Shown piece by piece: positions 16,393 to 27,200 of a stretch of 64,000 nucleotides of DNA. A program made the position numbers and the translations under genes. Under the pieces are notes generated by a model. That model was not told the DNA's origin. It made no database searches and saw nothing but the letters and a program-made list of their open reading frames with translations. The stretch spans positions 3,224,001-3,288,000 of the forward strand of contig NZ_LT900217.1 of NCBI RefSeq assembly GCF_900199375.1, in the 5' to 3' direction. This DNA comes from Gordonibacter urolithinfaciens. Its GTDB lineage: Bacteria > Actinomycetota > Coriobacteriia > Coriobacteriales > Eggerthellaceae. Every line of letters starts with the position of its first letter. Positions within the stretch are counted from its first letter, which is position 1.

Positions 16393-18318
<1,926 letters not shown>

Positions 18319-18374: not shown

Positions 18375-18390
18375 TGTTTCACGTGAAACA
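18375..18390. promoter_or_regulatory. parS site 1 (ParB-binding)
   Basis: TGTTTCACGTGAAACA is a perfect 16-bp palindrome identical to the consensus bacterial chromosomal parS. It lies in the gap between the small HMA gene and the P-type ATPase gene. ParB would load here for chromosome segregation. A second identical copy lies about 1 kb away. Confidence 0.9.
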
Positions 18391-18436
18391 TCCGTTCGCG
18401 TTCTTGCAGGGCGACGCTTCAATTGTCAGCGGGCGG

Positions 18437-18655
18437 TTAGCGCAGGATGACGCAATCCGGCTCGATCTTGCGGCACGCGCGCTCGGCCTCGTCGAGCACC
18501 GCTTCGAAGCGGTCGTCGTCGGCTTCCAACACGAGCTTCTGCGTCATGAAGCTGACCGTGGCGCTTTTCACGCCGTCGATGTTCGAGATGGCGTTCTCCA
18601 TCTTGGCCGCGCAGTTCGCGCAGTCGAGGTCCTGGAGCTTGAATGCTTTGCGCAT
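18437..18655 (-). CDS. Small HMA-domain metal-binding protein
   Basis: A 72-residue single heavy-metal-associated domain with the ferredoxin-like fold expected for metal chaperones. The metal-binding cysteines are C12 and C15 in LDCANCAAKM, and two acidic residues near 51-53 (ADDDR) follow. The D-C-x-x-C form, rather than M-x-C-x-x-C, is the version seen in Zn/Cd ATPase N-terminal domains, and the ATPase downstream lacks that domain, so this looks like the detached domain acting in trans. ATG 18655 is preceded by AAAGGAA. It is the middle gene of the repressor-HMA-ATPase operon. Confidence 0.85.
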   Translation of the reverse strand: MRKAFKLQDLDCANCAAKMENAISNIDGVKSATVSFMTQKLVLEADDDRFEAVLDEAERACRKIEPDCVILR

Positions 18656-18702
18656 GGGGGGTTCCTTTCGGTAGGGGCGTTCGTCGGGTTGTTCGTCGTT
18701 CG

Positions 18703-19101
18703 CTATTCGCAGATGTGGGTCATGCCCTGGGCGAGCATGGTGTACACGTGGTCGTCGGACAGCGAGTAGATGACGTTCTTGCCGTCGCGCTGGAACTTGA
18801 CGAGGCGGGCCTGCTTGAGCGTGCGCAGCTGGTGCGACACGGCGCTCTGCGTGGCGCCGACGAGCTCGGCGATGTCGGCCACGCACCGCTCCGTTCCCAT
18901 GAGGGCGTAGAGGATCTTGATGCGCGTCGTGTCGCCGAACACCTTGAACAGGTCGGCCAGGTCGTAGAGCAGTTCCTCGTCGGGCAACGATTCGGGCGGC
19001 TGGTCGGGCGAGGGATGCTCCGCGCTGCCGCACGCGCACCGGTGGTCGTGCTCGGCCGCCGGTGCGACCGTTCCGTGCTCTTCGTTTCTCGTAGATACCA
19101 T
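18703..19101 (-). CDS. ArsR/SmtB-family metal-sensing repressor
   Basis: A 132-residue winged-helix repressor that opens the zinc/cadmium operon. The recognition part is ATQSAVSHQLRTLKQARLV (82-100) and the conserved ELLYDLADLFKVFGDTTRIKIL precedes it. The C-terminal helix keeps the complete alpha5 zinc site in the SmtB pattern: D116-x-H118, ten residues, H129-x2-E132. The N-terminal tail adds HDHRCACG, a possible alpha3N-type thiol site, and a Cys at 73 (ERCVAD) is in the CadC alpha3 position, so both site types may be present. An inverted repeat of the family type lies just upstream. Confidence 0.92.
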   Translation of the reverse strand: MVSTRNEEHGTVAPAAEHDHRCACGSAEHPSPDQPPESLPDEELLYDLADLFKVFGDTTRIKILYALMGTERCVADIAELVGATQSAVSHQLRTLKQARLVKFQRDGKNVIYSLSDDHVYTMLAQGMTHICE

Positions 19102-19113
19102 TTCAACCTCTTA

Positions 19114-19139
19114 ACATATGATCAACTGTTCATAAGTAT
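19114..19139. promoter_or_regulatory. ArsR/SmtB-type operator
   Basis: The AT-rich imperfect dyad ACATATGATC-AACTG-TTCATAAGTAT lies 13 bases before the repressor start. It matches the ATATGAAC/TTCATAT type of site bound by SmtB/CadC proteins, and stands out as AT-rich in GC-rich DNA. Autoregulation of the repressor-HMA-ATPase operon is inferred. Confidence 0.65.
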
Positions 19140-19370
19140 ACGAACCAGAAGGGAGCTGTCAAGGGGTTCGGCAGACTTTCTCCCGGCCAGCGAAAAAACG
19201 AATCGTCCGGAAGACGGCGGAAGGGGTCGGGGGGAGGGAGATATGGAAGGGCGCTGGAAAAACGGCAGCCGAAGGGCGAGAGGCAAGGTTGCGGAAAAGA
19301 CGCGCAAAAAAGAAAAAAGAGGGGGCACCGCTCATGGCAGGGGCCGCGGGTCGCCGGGATAGCGAACGAA

Positions 19371-19386
19371 TGTTTCACGTGAAACA
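19371..19386. promoter_or_regulatory. parS site 2 (ParB-binding)
   Basis: A second perfect TGTTTCACGTGAAACA, identical to the first and 981 bases from it at the far side of the metal-efflux operon, in the gene-free region. Two exact copies of a 16-bp palindrome this close are not expected by chance. Confidence 0.9.
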
Positions 19387-19613: not shown

Positions 19614-19649
19614 CACAACCGTTTTTTCGTTCGCGAAAAAACGGTTGTG
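19614..19649. terminator. UUCG-capped hairpin, 16-bp perfect stem
   Basis: CACAACCGTTTTTTCG and its exact complement enclose the loop TTCG. The stem contains a T6/A6 block, so on either strand it resembles an intrinsic terminator whose U tract is inside the stem. It may insulate the Fe-S gene from transcription entering from the left. Confidence 0.55.
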
Positions 19650-21321: not shown

Positions 21322-21349
21322 TTGACAATACCCCTAAGGGGTATATACT
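21322..21349 (+). promoter_or_regulatory. csoR-copA promoter
   Basis: TTGACA (21322-21327) and TATACT (21344-21349) are separated by 16 bases. The spacer is itself the CsoR-type palindrome, so repressor binding would block RNA polymerase directly. The csoR start lies 54 bases downstream. Confidence 0.8.
21328..21344. promoter_or_regulatory. CsoR operator 1
   Basis: ATACCCCTAAGGGGTAT is a perfect palindrome around a central base, of the TACCC/GGGTA type bound by copper-sensing CsoR proteins. It fills the promoter spacer. Confidence 0.8.
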
Positions 21350-21362
21350 GACCGCACGTGAG

Positions 21363-21379
21363 ATACCCACAAGGGGTAT
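21363..21379. promoter_or_regulatory. CsoR operator 2
   Basis: ATACCCACAAGGGGTAT differs from operator 1 by two bases and lies 35 bases downstream of it, within the leader of csoR. A second site would tighten repression. Confidence 0.7.
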
Positions 21380-21402
21380 TTGGCAAGCAGAGAGGACAAG
21401 CC

Positions 21403-21783
21403 ATGGCGCAAGGCGGCCCGTTGGTGGACGGAAATACGGGGACGGCCGGCAAACCGAAGGCGGCGGAGAGCGGCTCACGCGACGGGACGGCCTGCCCATG
21501 CCGTCACAAGGACACGCCCCGCAGCGAGGAGCTGCAGGCCGACCTGCAAAAACGCCTCAACCGGGTGATCGGGCAGCTGGGCGGGGTGAAGGCCATGCTC
21601 GACGACAACCGCTACTGCGGCGACGTGCTCGTGCAGCTGGCCGCGGCCGAGAGCGCCGTGCGCAGCATTTCGAGCAGGCTTCTGCAGAACCACCTGGAGA
21701 CGTGCGTGGTCGAGCAGATACAGCGCGGCAACGTGGAGGTAGTCGACGAGGTCATGCAGCTCATGAGGAAGTTCTCGCGCTGA
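21403..21783 (+). CDS. csoR: Copper-sensing CsoR/RcnR-family repressor
   Basis: A 126-residue all-helical repressor that releases DNA when it binds Cu(I). The conserved RLNRVIGQLGGVKAMLDD leads into the ligand set C72 (YCGDV), H97 and C101 (NHLETC), the Cys-His-Cys pattern of copper sensors. The first 40 residues are a poorly conserved extension that contains CPCRHKD. ATG 21403 follows AGAGGACAAG. Two matching palindromes lie in its promoter, and copA follows 113 bases downstream, so it is an autoregulated copper operon. Confidence 0.92.
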   Translation: MAQGGPLVDGNTGTAGKPKAAESGSRDGTACPCRHKDTPRSEELQADLQKRLNRVIGQLGGVKAMLDDNRYCGDVLVQLAAAESAVRSISSRLLQNHLETCVVEQIQRGNVEVVDEVMQLMRKFSR

Positions 21784-21896
21784 CCGCGCCGCGGCGCGGC
21801 CTGCGCCGGAAGGCCGGCGCGCAATGCGCGGTTCGGCGAGAGATGAAGGCAGACGGCGCGGCCTGCAAGGGCCGCGCGGAACAGGAGGCGGAAGCC

Positions 21897-24503
21897 TTGA
21901 AGCAGACATTCGACGTGACCGGCATGACGTGCGCGGCGTGCTCGGCGCGCGTGGAGAAGGCCGTGCGCGCCGTGGGCGGCGTATCCGACGTTGCCGTGAA
22001 CCTGCTGAAAAACAGCATGGAGGTGGACTCCGACGGCGCGCCCGAGACGCTCTCGGCCGTGGTCGCGGCCGTGGAGAAAGCCGGCTACGGCGCCTTGCCG
22101 CGCCAGGCCAAGGGCGCGGGCCCTGCGTGCGGCGTCCAGGCGGGAGCCCCCTCGCCGATGGGCGCGGCGGCTGCGGAGGCCAAGCAGGTAAGGCAGCGGC
22201 TCGTCGTGTCGTTCGCGTTCACCATCCCGCTGTTCTATATCTCCATGGGCCATATGTTCGGCTGGCCGCTGCCGGGGTTCCTGCTGGGCGAGCGGAACAT
22301 CATGGCGTTCGGCCTCACTCAGCTTCTGCTGCTCGCGCCCGTGGTGTTCGTGAACTTCAAGTTCTTCCGCGTGGGCTTCAAGACGCTCTTCCGCGGCGCG
22401 CCCAACATGGACTCGCTCATCGCGCTCGGCTCCACGGCGGCCACGGTGTACGGCGTGTACGCGCTGTACCGCATTGCCTACGCGCTCGGCGCGGGCGATG
22501 TGCACGGGGCGCATGCGGCCGGCATGGACCTGTACTTCGAGAGCGCGGCCATGATCCTCACGCTCATCACGCTGGGCAAGTACTTCGAGGCGCGCGCGAA
22601 GGGCCGCACGACCGATGCCATCGCCACGCTCATGGACCTGGCGCCCAAGACGGCCGTGCGCGTCTCCGCCGACGGCACCCAGGAGCAGATCCTGGCCGAC
22701 GACGTGCGCGAGGGCGACGTGCTGGCGGTGCGCGCGGGCGAGGGCGTGCCGGTGGACGGCGTGGTGGTGGACGGCGCGGCGTCGGTGGACGAATCGGCCA
22801 TCACCGGCGAGTCGGTGCCAGTCGACAAGGCGCCCGGCGACCCGGTGACGGGAGCCACGGTGAGCCGCACGGGCTACTTCACCATGCGCGCCACGCGCGT
22901 GGGCGACGACACCACGCTCGCCGGCATCATCCGCCTCGTGGACGAGGCCACCAGCTCCAAGGCGCCCATCGAGAAGATAGCCGACCGCATCAGCGGCGTG
23001 TTCGTGCCCGTGGTCATCGTCATCGCGCTGGCCGCGTTCGCCGTATGGATGGTGCTGGGAGCGGGGTTGGAGACAGCCCTGTCGCACGCCATCTCGGTGC
23101 TCGTGATATCGTGTCCCTGCGCGCTGGGGCTCGCCACGCCCACGGCCATCATGGTGGGCACCGGCCGCGGCGCGAAGAGCGGCATCCTGGTGAAGTCAGC
23201 CGAGGCGCTGGAGGGCGCCCACGACGTGCGCACCGTCGTGCTCGACAAGACCGGCACCGTGACCGAGGGCGCCCCGAGCGTGACCGACGTGATAACCGCG
23301 CCCGGCGTGCCCGAGGGACGCCTGCTGGCGACGGCGCTGGCCGTGGAGCATCTGAGCGAGCACCCGCTCGCCCGCGCCGTGTGCGGCTTCGCGCAGGCAC
23401 GCGGGACGGCGGCGGACGCCCGCATCGAGGGCTTCATGCAGGTGCCCGGCGAGGGCCTTTCCGCCACCGTGGACGGCGCGGCCGTGCTGGCCGGCAACCT
23501 GCGCATGATGGAGGCGCGCGGCGTGGACGCAGGCGAGATGGGCGCGCGGGCGCGGCGCTTGGCCGACGACGGCAAGACGCCGCTGTTCTTCGCTGCGGAC
23601 GGCAGGCTGCTGGGCGTGATCGCCGTGGCCGACACGGTGAAGCCCACGAGCCGCGCCGCCGTGGCCGAGCTTTCGGCCATGGGCATCCGCACCGTGATGC
23701 TCACCGGCGACAACGAGCGCACGGCCGCCGCCATCCAGCGCGAGGTGGGCGCGGACGAGGTGATAGCCGGCGTGCTGCCCGAGGGCAAGGAGCGCGAGAT
23801 CCGCCGCCTGGCCCAGGGCGGACGCGTAGCCATGGTGGGGGACGGCATCAACGACGCGCCCGCGCTCGCCCGCGCCGACATCGGCATCGCCATAGGCGCC
23901 GGCACCGACGTTGCCATCGAGAGCGCCGACGTCGTGCTCATGAGAAGCGACCTCATGGACGTGCCGGCGGCCATCCAGCTGTCGCGCGCCACCCTGCGCA
24001 ACATCAAGCAGAACCTGTTCTGGGCGCTCGTCTACAACGCCGTGTGCATCCCGGTGGCGGCCGGTGCGCTGGCCTTCGCGGGCGTGAACCTGAACCCGAT
24101 GATCGCCGCGGCTGCCATGTCGTTGAGCTCGGTGTGCGTGGTGTCGAACGCGCTGCGGTTGCGCGGGTGGCAGCCACGGTTCACGGCGGCCGCGCCGCCC
24201 GCCGCTCGACCGTCGACGCTCGCAGCGGGCGAGGAGAGCGGTGGTAAGGAAATCGAAGGGGGCGCCGCGGCGCCCGCGGGAAAGGAGATCGTCATGGAAA
24301 AGGTACTGCATGTCGAGGGCATGATGTGCCAGCACTGCGTTGCGCGCGTGAAGAAGGCCCTCGAGGCCGTGGACGGCGTAAAAGAGGCCGTCGTGGACCT
24401 CGACGCGAAGACCGCCGTCGCGAGGCTCGCGCGCGAGGTGGACGATGCGACCCTGAAGGCCGCCGTGGAGGAGCAGGACTACGAGGTAACGGGCGTGGAG
24501 TAA
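21897..24503 (+). CDS. copA: Copper-exporting P1B-1 ATPase with fused C-terminal CopZ domain
   Basis: CopA pumps Cu(I) out of the cytoplasm. The 868-residue protein has an N-terminal metal-binding domain with MTCAAC (C12, C15), eight membrane segments, CPC at 406-408, D450 of DKTGT, GDGINDAPAL, and a last helix MSLSSVCVVSNALRLR of the copper group. After the last helix comes a low-complexity linker (PPAARPSTLAAGEESGGKE) and a second full domain with GMMCQHC (C811, C814). TTG 21897 is chosen because AGGAGG lies 8 bases upstream; an in-frame ATG at 21843 would add 18 residues. It follows csoR in the same operon. Confidence 0.92.
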   Translation: MKQTFDVTGMTCAACSARVEKAVRAVGGVSDVAVNLLKNSMEVDSDGAPETLSAVVAAVEKAGYGALPRQAKGAGPACGVQAGAPSPMGAAAAEAKQVRQRLVVSFAFTIPLFYISMGHMFGWPLPGFLLGERNIMAFGLTQLLLLAPVVFVNFKFFRVGFKTLFRGAPNMDSLIALGSTAATVYGVYALYRIAYALGAGDVHGAHAAGMDLYFESAAMILTLITLGKYFEARAKGRTTDAIATLMDLAPKTAVRVSADGTQEQILADDVREGDVLAVRAGEGVPVDGVVVDGAASVDESAITGESVPVDKAPGDPVTGATVSRTGYFTMRATRVGDDTTLAGIIRLVDEATSSKAPIEKIADRISGVFVPVVIVIALAAFAVWMVLGAGLETALSHAISVLVISCPCALGLATPTAIMVGTGRGAKSGILVKSAEALEGAHDVRTVVLDKTGTVTEGAPSVTDVITAPGVPEGRLLATALAVEHLSEHPLARAVCGFAQARGTAADARIEGFMQVPGEGLSATVDGAAVLAGNLRMMEARGVDAGEMGARARRLADDGKTPLFFAADGRLLGVIAVADTVKPTSRAAVAELSAMGIRTVMLTGDNERTAAAIQREVGADEVIAGVLPEGKEREIRRLAQGGRVAMVGDGINDAPALARADIGIAIGAGTDVAIESADVVLMRSDLMDVPAAIQLSRATLRNIKQNLFWALVYNAVCIPVAAGALAFAGVNLNPMIAAAAMSLSSVCVVSNALRLRGWQPRFTAAAPPAARPSTLAAGEESGGKEIEGGAAAPAGKEIVMEKVLHVEGMMCQHCVARVKKALEAVDGVKEAVVDLDAKTAVARLAREVDDATLKAAVEEQDYEVTGVE
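24294..24503 (+). CDS. Internal start giving a free CopZ-like chaperone (possible)
   Basis: Within the copA frame, ATG 24294 is preceded by AAAGGAG with a 6-base spacer, a normal ribosome binding site. Translation from it would give a 69-residue single HMA domain, MEKVLHVEGMMCQHCVARVK onward, the size of a CopZ copper chaperone. Its fold is also the C-terminal domain of CopA. I infer that it was a separate copZ gene that lost its upstream stop, or that both products are made. Expression is not shown by sequence. Confidence 0.5.
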   Translation: MEKVLHVEGMMCQHCVARVKKALEAVDGVKEAVVDLDAKTAVARLAREVDDATLKAAVEEQDYEVTGVE

Positions 24504-25844: not shown

Positions 25845-27200
25845 ATGAAGGAAGAATTCCCGCAGACCGCCGCGCCCGCACCGGGCGACCGCCCCTCCCG
25901 CCCGCGGGCGGGGGAAGCCCCGGCGCGCCCGCTGCCGCTCGAGCCGTGGGAGGGGCCGGCCATCCTGCTGGTAGACCTGGACGCGTTCTTCGCCTCGGTC
26001 GAGCAGCTGGACCATCCCGCCTGGCGCGGCAAGCCCGTCATCGTGGGCGGCGACGCGGACAAGCACGGCGTGGTGTCCACCGCCTCCTACGAGGCGCGGC
26101 CCTACGGGGTGAGAAGCGCCATGCCCTCGTCGACGGCGCGCCGCCTGTGCCCCGACGCCGTCTGGACGCACGGACGCTTCGACCGCTACCGCGAGGTGTC
26201 CAACGCCATCATGGCCATCCTGCGCTCCGAGACGCCGCACGTGCAGCAGGTGAGCATCGACGAGGCGTTCCTGGACGTCACGCCTACCGCGGTGAACCGC
26301 GAGCACCCGGTGCGCGTGGCCCAGCGCATCCAGCGGCGCGTGGAGGAGCTGGGGGTGACGTGCTCCATCGGCGCGGGGACCTCCAAGACCATCGCGAAGA
26401 TCGCCTCGGACATGGACAAGCCGCGCGGCCTCACCGTGGTCTACCCCGGCAGCGAGCGCGACTTTTTGGCGCCGTTGCCCGTGCGAGCGATGAGCGGCAT
26501 CGGCGCGTCGGCCGAGGAGAAGCTGAGATCGCGCGGCATCCGCACGCTCGGGCAGCTTGCCGACGCCGACCTGCGCATGCTCGAGCGCGTGTTCGGCAAG
26601 CTGGGGCGCGTTATGCACGTGAGGGCGAACGGCGGCGACGACGCGCCGGTGGAGCAGGACGACGCCGTGAAGTCGGTTTCCAACGAGATGACGTTCGCGA
26701 CGGACCTCACCCGCCGAGAGGACGTGGAGGCCGCCATCGCCACGATGGCCGCGAAGGTGGGGCGCCGCCTTCGCCGCAAGGGCCTGCGCGGCCGCACGCT
26801 CGCCCTGCGCGTGAAGTTCGACGACCTGAGCGTGCGCTCGGTGCAGCGCCAGCTGCCGCAGCCGAGCGACGACGAGCTGGCCTACACGCCGCTGCTCTAC
26901 GCCATGGTCGACGAGGTGTGGCGCCCCGGCACGCCGCTGCGCCTCATCGGCGTGGGCATGAGCGGCTTCGCGGAGGAGGGCGCCGTGCAGGAGAGCCTCT
27001 TCGACGTGGCCGAGGCGGCGCCGTCCGCCGACGACGTGGAGCCCGTCGTGCGCGACGAGCGCAAGCGCCGCGGCCTCATCGAGGCCACCGACCTCGTGAA
27101 GGACCGCTTCGGCGAGGCCGCCGTCCGCTTCGGCCACGAGCTGCGCAACGAGGGGAACACCACCGGCTCGTCCAGCAAGAACCCGGCGGATTACAAGTAA
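25845..27200 (+). CDS. dinB: DNA polymerase IV (Y-family)
   Basis: A translesion DNA polymerase of 451 residues. ILLVDLDAFFASVEQ carries the first catalytic Asp, QQVSIDEAFLDVTPT the second acidic pair, and CSIGAGTSKTIAKIASDMDKP and the helix-hairpin-helix region (PVRAMSGIGASAEEKL) follow in the usual order, with the little-finger domain after residue 260. QESLF at 382-386 is a beta-clamp-binding motif. About 35 residues of Pro/Ala/Arg-rich sequence precede the palm. ATG 25845 has no clear ribosome binding site; translation could start a little downstream. No LexA box was found upstream. Confidence 0.92.
   Translation: MKEEFPQTAAPAPGDRPSRPRAGEAPARPLPLEPWEGPAILLVDLDAFFASVEQLDHPAWRGKPVIVGGDADKHGVVSTASYEARPYGVRSAMPSSTARRLCPDAVWTHGRFDRYREVSNAIMAILRSETPHVQQVSIDEAFLDVTPTAVNREHPVRVAQRIQRRVEELGVTCSIGAGTSKTIAKIASDMDKPRGLTVVYPGSERDFLAPLPVRAMSGIGASAEEKLRSRGIRTLGQLADADLRMLERVFGKLGRVMHVRANGGDDAPVEQDDAVKSVSNEMTFATDLTRREDVEAAIATMAAKVGRRLRRKGLRGRTLALRVKFDDLSVRSVQRQLPQPSDDELAYTPLLYAMVDEVWRPGTPLRLIGVGMSGFAEEGAVQESLFDVAEAAPSADDVEPVVRDERKRRGLIEATDLVKDRFGEAAVRFGHELRNEGNTTGSSSKNPADYK

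Follow-up and report, generated by a model that had tools for sequence, protein, structure and literature searches.

Why do two perfect copies of parS, the chromosomal site bound by ParB, lie about 1 kb apart in a heavy-metal efflux operon of Gordonibacter urolithinfaciens, and what kind of parS are they? The stretch of DNA that we analyzed (the window, 64,000 nucleotides) contains the 16-mer TGTTTCACGTGAAACA exactly twice, at 18375..18390 (copy 1) and 19371..19386 (copy 2), neither copy having a strand. No further site was retrieved from the window even when up to 3 mismatches were allowed. Matches of that quality are expected at a mean of 0.07 per window, and two never occurred in 100 shuffles.

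A parS pair within a native metal operon

Copy 1 occupies the gap of ~110 bases between the genes for a small HMA metal-binding protein (PF00403; 18437..18655, minus strand) and a heavy-metal P1B ATPase of the cadmium family (PF00122; TIGR01512, 512.9 bits against a cut-off of 313.5; 16393..18318, minus strand), the latter being the gene downstream of the site. Copy 2 lies in a divergent gap, upstream of a gene for an ArsR/SmtB-family metalloregulator (PF01022; NF033788, 91.8 bits against a cut-off of 55; 18703..19101, minus strand), with a 4Fe-4S ferredoxin-type protein (PF00037, PF12837; 19794..20576, plus strand) encoded on its other side. The first-pass annotation had correctly recorded both copies, the absence of a third, and the position of one site between the HMA and ATPase genes. 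Its description of the pair as flanking most of the efflux operon holds for arsR and the HMA gene, which are bracketed, but not for the ATPase gene, which is the largest of the operon and lies outside the interval. The further suggestion that the operon had been inserted beside the sites is contradicted by gene order. The ferredoxin-arsR-HMA-ATPase arrangement recurs in related genera, and arsR, HMA, and ATPase genes are collinear both where parS is present (loci L054, L055, and L062) and where it is missing (L060, L061, and L100), which argues that the metal operon is native rather than an insertion.

The surrounding DNA holds other features. An inverted repeat with perfect 16-base arms around a 4-base loop (CACAACCGTTTTTTCG) lies at 19614-19649, in the divergent gap near copy 2. 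At 21328-24503, a palindrome containing TACCCCTAAGGGGTA precedes a repressor gene (Trns_repr_metal, CsoR-type); next comes a second P-type ATPase gene, whose product has two HMA stretches. A Y-family (IMS) DNA polymerase gene is located at 25845-27200.

The pair lies opposite the origin

The window corresponds to bases 3224001-3288000 of a single 3,294,868-base contig, on which dnaA spans 1637161-1638720 and ParB is matched at 1645437. The two window sites, at contig positions 3242375 and 3243371, are thus ~1.60 Mb from dnaA, where a circular contig would allow at most 1.65 Mb. Circularity is assumed here, as no gene spanning the contig ends was found. At ~97% of the dnaA-to-antipode distance, the pair falls outside the origin region (about 20% around oriC) in which chromosomal parS usually resides, although such a location is not defining for single sites. 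GC skew, sampled in twenty places, is either negative or close to zero up to ~1.5 Mb and positive over 1.63 to ~3.25 Mb, becoming mixed in the second half of the window and near zero at the contig ends. Across the window and its flanks, cumulative skew reaches its maximum near 3287987, within a broad plateau. With dnaA and ParB ~1.60 Mb away and a skew turn nearby, the window is not origin-proximal, as had been proposed at first; the pair is nearly antipodal to dnaA/ParB. A search of the contig for a second full dnaA/ParB locus gave only weak partial matches at 0.80-0.81 Mb, and the expression used for dif-like motifs matched nothing near ter.

parS is abundant and dispersed in part of the Eggerthellaceae

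Across the window genome, we counted 51 exact parS sites and 66 sites at up to 2 mismatches, compared with none for the reversed pattern. Nineteen of the 51 fall within 58 kb of the dnaA-ParB region, and the other 32 are spread along both arms. Three pairs, with members 1.0 to 2.4 kb apart, lie near the antipode (3082543/3084121, 3188210/3190606, and the window pair 3242375/3243371). According to a purpose-written dicodon gene caller, 45/51 sites lie outside genes (binomial 3e-35 for at least 45 at a 12% intergenic share, itself taken from the 88% of the window called genic). Of the six sites called genic, two share 12 bases with the end of a gene, and we suspect that the others partly reflect false gene calls.

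The palindromes are consensus parS, as first annotated, and a single canonical ParB is encoded within the dense parS cluster beside dnaA. The first-pass annotation had also regarded hundreds of copies genome-wide as the mark of an unrelated palindrome. The copies are indeed many, at 51, but their clustering, intergenic placement, and persistence are not those of such a palindrome: 19 are concentrated at dnaA-ParB, 45/51 avoid genes, and sites are kept between species. A reading of the window pair as ordinary origin-proximal parS, or as an unrelated palindrome, draws on the consensus sequence and the many copies; it is exceedingly unlikely given the near-antipodal position indicated by dnaA, ParB, and skew, and given 51 exact copies against 0 for the reversed pattern.

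High parS number is a trait of part of the family. Among 36 Eggerthellaceae genomes, 11 carry 25-126 exact copies, 3 carry 11-14, and 22 carry 0-8. Other families of the same order have 0-3 per genome (24 genomes), and across 246 genomes sampled from the phylum, the maximum reached outside the family was 13. Gordonibacter pamelaeae has 78. Genome G006, with 108, has dnaA at 2287340 and eight exact copies at 557-618 kb, which is within ~41 kb of its antipode if the chromosome is circular. The best explanation for the window pair is that it belongs to a chromosome-wide parS set present in part of the Eggerthellaceae.

Some copies are more tightly spaced. G006 contains exact pairs 34-36 bases apart (e.g., 100651/100685, 612756/612790, and 2005178/2005213) with similar spacers of 18-20 bases, some bearing inward-facing boxes of the kind described below. 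Close pairs also occur in locus L062 (5084/5118) and in G. pamelaeae (945990/946024), and an Eggerthellaceae MAG carries three exact copies at 66-base spacing upstream of an ATPase relative (L086:5173-5320).

One canonical ParB per genome

The ParB of the window genome is a strong match to TIGR00180 (E 3.2e-54) and PF17762 (E 9.7e-35). Our search covered 35 genomes, G017 and G031 not being among them, and retrieved one strong ParB-type helix-turn-helix protein in each of 34 and none in G027. A second, parS-reading ParB paralogue tied to parS number was considered and rejected, as none was seen in this search. The DNA-binding region looked alike by eye, in partial view, among 30 ParB proteins from genomes with many and with few parS. 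SMC was retrieved in 14/14 genomes, above the cut-off in 11 and as two pieces each in the other three.

A flanking box in fixed register distinguishes distal from origin sites

Inspection of parS flanks in the window genome revealed two classes of site. The motif GNAC occupies positions -7 to -4 of parS at 28/32 sites at least 59 kb from the origin, compared with 1/19 nearer sites (Fisher 4e-9). Divided by distance, it occurs at 1/18 sites below 58 kb (a count without the nineteenth near-origin site, which is boxless), 3/6 at 58-100 kb, and 25/26 beyond 100 kb. The 28 boxed distal sites have the box on one or both sides in a fixed register, so that box and parS form a hybrid across one parS arm, typically CGAACRRATGTTTC. 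The box typically reads CGAAC-RRAT-GTTTC, in which the GTTTC half is common to the box and the parS arm. Both window copies are of this type. The box over one arm of copy 1 is CGAACGGATGTTTC (18385..18398, minus strand) and that over one arm of copy 2 is CGAACGAATGTTTC (19363..19376, plus strand), listed in genome coordinates as 3242385-3242397 and 3243364-3243376, respectively.

The register was assessed on 308 flanks from 154 sites, drawn from the window genome, G. pamelaeae, G001, G006, and relatives of the ATPase locus. GNAC was present at its own offset in 108/308 flanks, versus 1-9/308 at each of 23 other offsets. The consensus preceding parS at 93 oriented one-box sites was C(69%)-G-A/T/C-A-C-R-R-A, with little information outside. 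In G. pamelaeae, GNAC was found at 0/5 origin-zone sites, 4/6 at 58-100 kb, and 19/29 beyond 100 kb (sites fetched); in G006 at 29/41 sites; and in G018, from another lineage, at 3/11 sites outside the origin cluster. Besides the origin zone of G. pamelaeae, the negative controls were the low-count genome G009 (0/5 sites) and two other actinobacteria (0/3 sites), from which it was likewise absent. These figures rest on positions for 76/78 sites and flanks for 40 in G. pamelaeae, positions for 58/108 and sequence for 41 in G006, and 20/26 sites in G018; they do not extend to G007, G024, G025, G028, and G032. For the window genome, the flank and orthology set comprised 50/51 sites, with 1628018 added for LexA-consensus scoring. 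The distal-versus-origin pattern is looser in G. pamelaeae, G006, and G018 than in the window genome. As a sequence pattern, the box-parS hybrid is well supported and very probably real.

Other flank features were noted. By eye, five origin-zone copies (1643518, 1648430, 1648487, 1664875, and 1678369) sit inside longer, terminator-like inverted repeats, and the boxless distal copies 1409829 and 1715184 likewise center longer inverted repeats. Flank symmetry at -2/+2, considered as an RNA stem, was weak (p = 0.002 in a set containing orthologues) and was not relied on. A promoter or RNA element was rejected on the basis of mixed orientation, with 9 boxes sense and 11 antisense in co-directional gaps and no replichore bias evident by eye.

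The box matches the LexA consensus

An excerpt of PMC2248561 (its Table 5) gives CGAACRnRYGTTYC as the LexA consensus of Firmicutes and Actinobacteria. The typical box CGAAC-RRAT-GTTTC fits this consensus, and both window boxes match it at 14/14 positions. At most one mismatch to the consensus was found for 24/26 sites of the window genome beyond 100 kb (15 exact), 4/6 at 58-100 kb, and 1/19 nearer the origin. The corresponding values were 18/29, 6/6, and 0/5 in G. pamelaeae, and 21/41 sites overall in G006. A sliding control of this fit is zero almost by construction, owing to the fixed parS letters, and the GNAC-offset comparison is the real control.

LexA itself scored above the cut-off in 12/12 genomes tested, including the window genome, and all 12 lexA promoters carry two GAACN4GTTC boxes, a motif found nowhere within the 64-kb window. 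The lexA promoters also contain a third element, which is exactly CGAACAAATGTTTT in 6/12 genomes and a variant such as CGTACATTTGTTTG in others; it was not found in G018. We infer that this third element binds LexA. We then asked where hybrid-like boxes occur in ~0.99 Mb of the window genome, a sample in which overlaps are counted, whose parts were picked largely for parS content, and to which the lexA locus was added deliberately. Of 21 matches to CGAACRNRYGTTYC, 19 lie on parS and 1 on a 3-mismatch parS; the last is 29 bases before a gene with IMS domains (Y-family polymerase). The pattern CGHACRRATGTTT gave 20 matches, 18 on parS, 1 on that same 3-mismatch parS, and 1 at lexA. The looser CGAACN4GTTT gave 28, of which 9 were without parS and 5 of these intergenic. 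Across the whole genome, all 29 matches to GAACNNATGTTTC are on parS (23 exact, 6 with 1-3 mismatches).

Taken together, LexA is probably the reader of the flanking box. Alternatively, the reader of the box could be a different partner, or ParB, such that isolated distal sites are stabilized and permanently occupied with no role for LexA. The near confinement of the box to sites outside the origin cluster of the window genome fits a stabilizing partner, as does its indifference to gene orientation (9 sense, 11 antisense). GTAC or GCAC replaces GAAC in 40/108 boxes, making them less LexA-like, which likewise fits a partner other than LexA. However, at all six box-specific columns (C, G, A, A, C, and R at -8 to -3) the commonest letter is that of the LexA consensus, and near-identical boxes stand at the lexA and Y-polymerase promoters. 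A box read by ParB also sits poorly with the similarity, noted above, of the ParB DNA-binding region between many- and few-parS genomes. We consider a reader other than LexA rather unlikely.

If LexA does read the box, the sites might simply be SOS operators of their neighboring genes, with ParB as co-repressor and the metal operon responsive to damage. Gap geometry lends this some weight, with intergenic boxed sites of the window genome lying in 21 co-directional, 2 divergent, and 0 convergent gaps, against 8/21 convergent for boxless sites. Convergent gaps make up just 7.7% of the background, however, so that 0/23 is weak evidence. The boxed pair 3188210/3190606 (L051) lies ahead of two repair genes, with one site 42 bases from a UvrD/PcrA-like helicase gene and the other 558 bases from uvrC, and is possibly the ancestral hybrid at a true SOS promoter. 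DNA-repair neighbors were recognizable at 2/29 boxed sites, the remaining neighbors being judged by eye from translations; with so few sites facing repair genes, ordinary SOS gene control is not evident. Other neighbors encode un-SOS-like products, including the metal ATPase, transporters, and HypD-like, FolC-like, and SufC-like proteins. Given in addition that an operator has no need of a complete parS, control of adjacent genes is an improbable account of the boxed sites as a set.

Sites are probably inherited, with turnover

Among the ATPase loci in fetched DNA, 71/80 are without parS at up to 1 mismatch. A boxed parS in the HMA-ATPase gap is nonetheless shared with Eggerthella sinensis, Gordonibacter An230, G. 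pamelaeae, and Candidatus Rubneribacter avistercoris, with diverged flanks, although An230 and G. pamelaeae (L056 and L059) are nearly identical there. Rubneribacter badeniensis has the site with one mismatch. It is absent from that gap in L057, L058, L060, L061, L099, L100, and L122. In two of these loci, L057 and L122 (both Gordonibacter), the gap preceding the ATPase contains a different, repeat-like sequence that includes gatccttcgactccg and caggatgac.

Genome-wide comparison gave a similar mixture of retention and loss. Where both flanks of a window-genome site were found in G. pamelaeae, the matching gap contained an exact parS in 17/19 cases; a further 31/50 sites had no match in the fetched part of that genome. 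In the reverse direction, 17/30 G. pamelaeae sites were matched in the window genome, and comparison of the window genome with the same-genus genome G001 gave 2/9. Thirteen window-genome gaps do not have the exact parS of G. pamelaeae. Eleven of these were viewed, and a degenerate copy was present in 8, in five of which the length was roughly unchanged; some of the other viewed gaps without exact parS are indels, which fit insertion too. Persistence together with degenerate copies fits vertical inheritance with turnover better than insertion. At two sites, both parS flanks have changed together with the palindrome kept (e.g., GAA..TTC versus GGA..TCC; 1431232 versus G060:1105846 and 1575681 versus G060:1219665). 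Such joint changes are perhaps template-switch mutations.

These comparisons also bear on whether parS-like palindromes travel on a REP-like repeat mobilized by a Y1/RAYT transposase. The dispersed, intergenic copies with a short box 5' of the palindrome and the pairs repeated 34-36 bases apart in G006 would suit such an element. Nevertheless, the number of Y1 transposases does not track parS across the 36 genomes (G032 has 109 parS and 0 Y1; G011 has 2 parS and 8 Y1), parS flanks share nothing past the motif, and 8/11 viewed "empty" gaps of the window genome contain degenerate parS. A mobile repeat is very improbable, finding no support in Y1 number or flanks.

A proposed model of damage-gated masking

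How might a genome carry so many parS far from its origin? In our best reading, which we consider an even call, LexA masks origin-distal parS until DNA damage occurs. LexA and the helix-turn-helix of ParB would read the same GTTTC arm and therefore exclude each other, mutual exclusion being the simplest consequence of the overlap. In an undamaged cell, LexA would keep distal parS shut, and ParB (and SMC) would load at the origin alone. Upon DNA damage, LexA cleavage would open the distal sites, and ParB, perhaps with SMC, could then load across the chromosome, terminus included. Binding of LexA and ParB to the hybrid sites, their competition, and switching by damage are all predicted from sequence. 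The wider proposal is that part of the Eggerthellaceae possesses a damage-gated centromere network, in which LexA-shut parS sites are opened together by the SOS response and ParB/SMC is redeployed from the origin to the whole chromosome. We offer it tentatively, as plausible but somewhat short of an even chance.

Masking by LexA would allow a genome to carry distal parS, which experiments elsewhere suggest can be costly. According to an excerpt of PMC5098823, it proved impossible to construct and propagate Pseudomonas aeruginosa strains whose parS lay 1 or 1.5 Mb from oriC, indicating that distal parS is harmful in at least one species. In Caulobacter, an excerpt of PMC5815017 describes a zone surrounding the native cluster that is permissive for extra parS, with ter tolerating additional sites better than mid-arm positions. 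Extra parS near ter is fairly well tolerated in that organism, so masking is not always needed.

Relation to known systems and significance

The parS set resembles the chromosomal ParABS/parS clusters of Bacillus, Caulobacter, Streptomyces, and Corynebacterium in its 16-bp consensus, single canonical ParB, SMC, and densest cluster at dnaA/ParB. It differs in number and reach, with 51 exact copies in this genome and as many as 126 in relatives, extending to the terminus, and in that distal copies are mostly intergenic and mostly bear an SOS-like box. For comparison, a published excerpt gives 22 near-origin parS for S. coelicolor and Listeria innocua and describes this as accumulation. The boxes are like Gram-positive LexA SOS boxes, as far as the excerpted consensus defines them, in their 14/14 match at both window sites, their same spacing, and their closeness to the third lexA box; unlike those SOS boxes, they are fused to a full parS and mostly do not precede recognizable DNA-repair genes.

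Two other types of dispersed element invite comparison. In the Noc/NBS and SlmA/SBS systems, a division regulator that binds DNA, of the ParB family or another, recognizes numerous palindromes dispersed over the chromosome, and Noc and SlmA sites are generally scarce near ter. Here, parS pairs occur near ter, and our 35-genome search gave no parS-reading ParB paralogue that follows parS number. The REP/BIME elements associated with RAYT transposases are intergenic palindromes with a short 5' box, and the boxed parS sites share this layout. They differ from REP/BIME in having no link to Y1 number, unshared flanks, and degenerate copies in many empty gaps.

Among the open-licence PMC papers listed by our search, none concerned these parS sites or a parS/SOS-box overlap, and neither SOS nor LexA appears in the main text of PMC7022226, which treats ParB in general. 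A link between SOS and segregation was likewise not seen in the open-licence literature searched.

The findings bear on why parS mostly keeps to the origin and on what distal parS does. Here, parS occurs naturally at the terminus, and in the window genome one sequence feature tells distal and origin sites apart almost completely. Should the binder prove not to be LexA, the two classes of site and the 25-126 copies per genome would remain conspicuous against the rest of the phylum sample, and both can be tested in cultured relatives. If LexA does gate distal parS, the SOS response would directly reshape how chromosomes segregate and where condensin loads in these bacteria.
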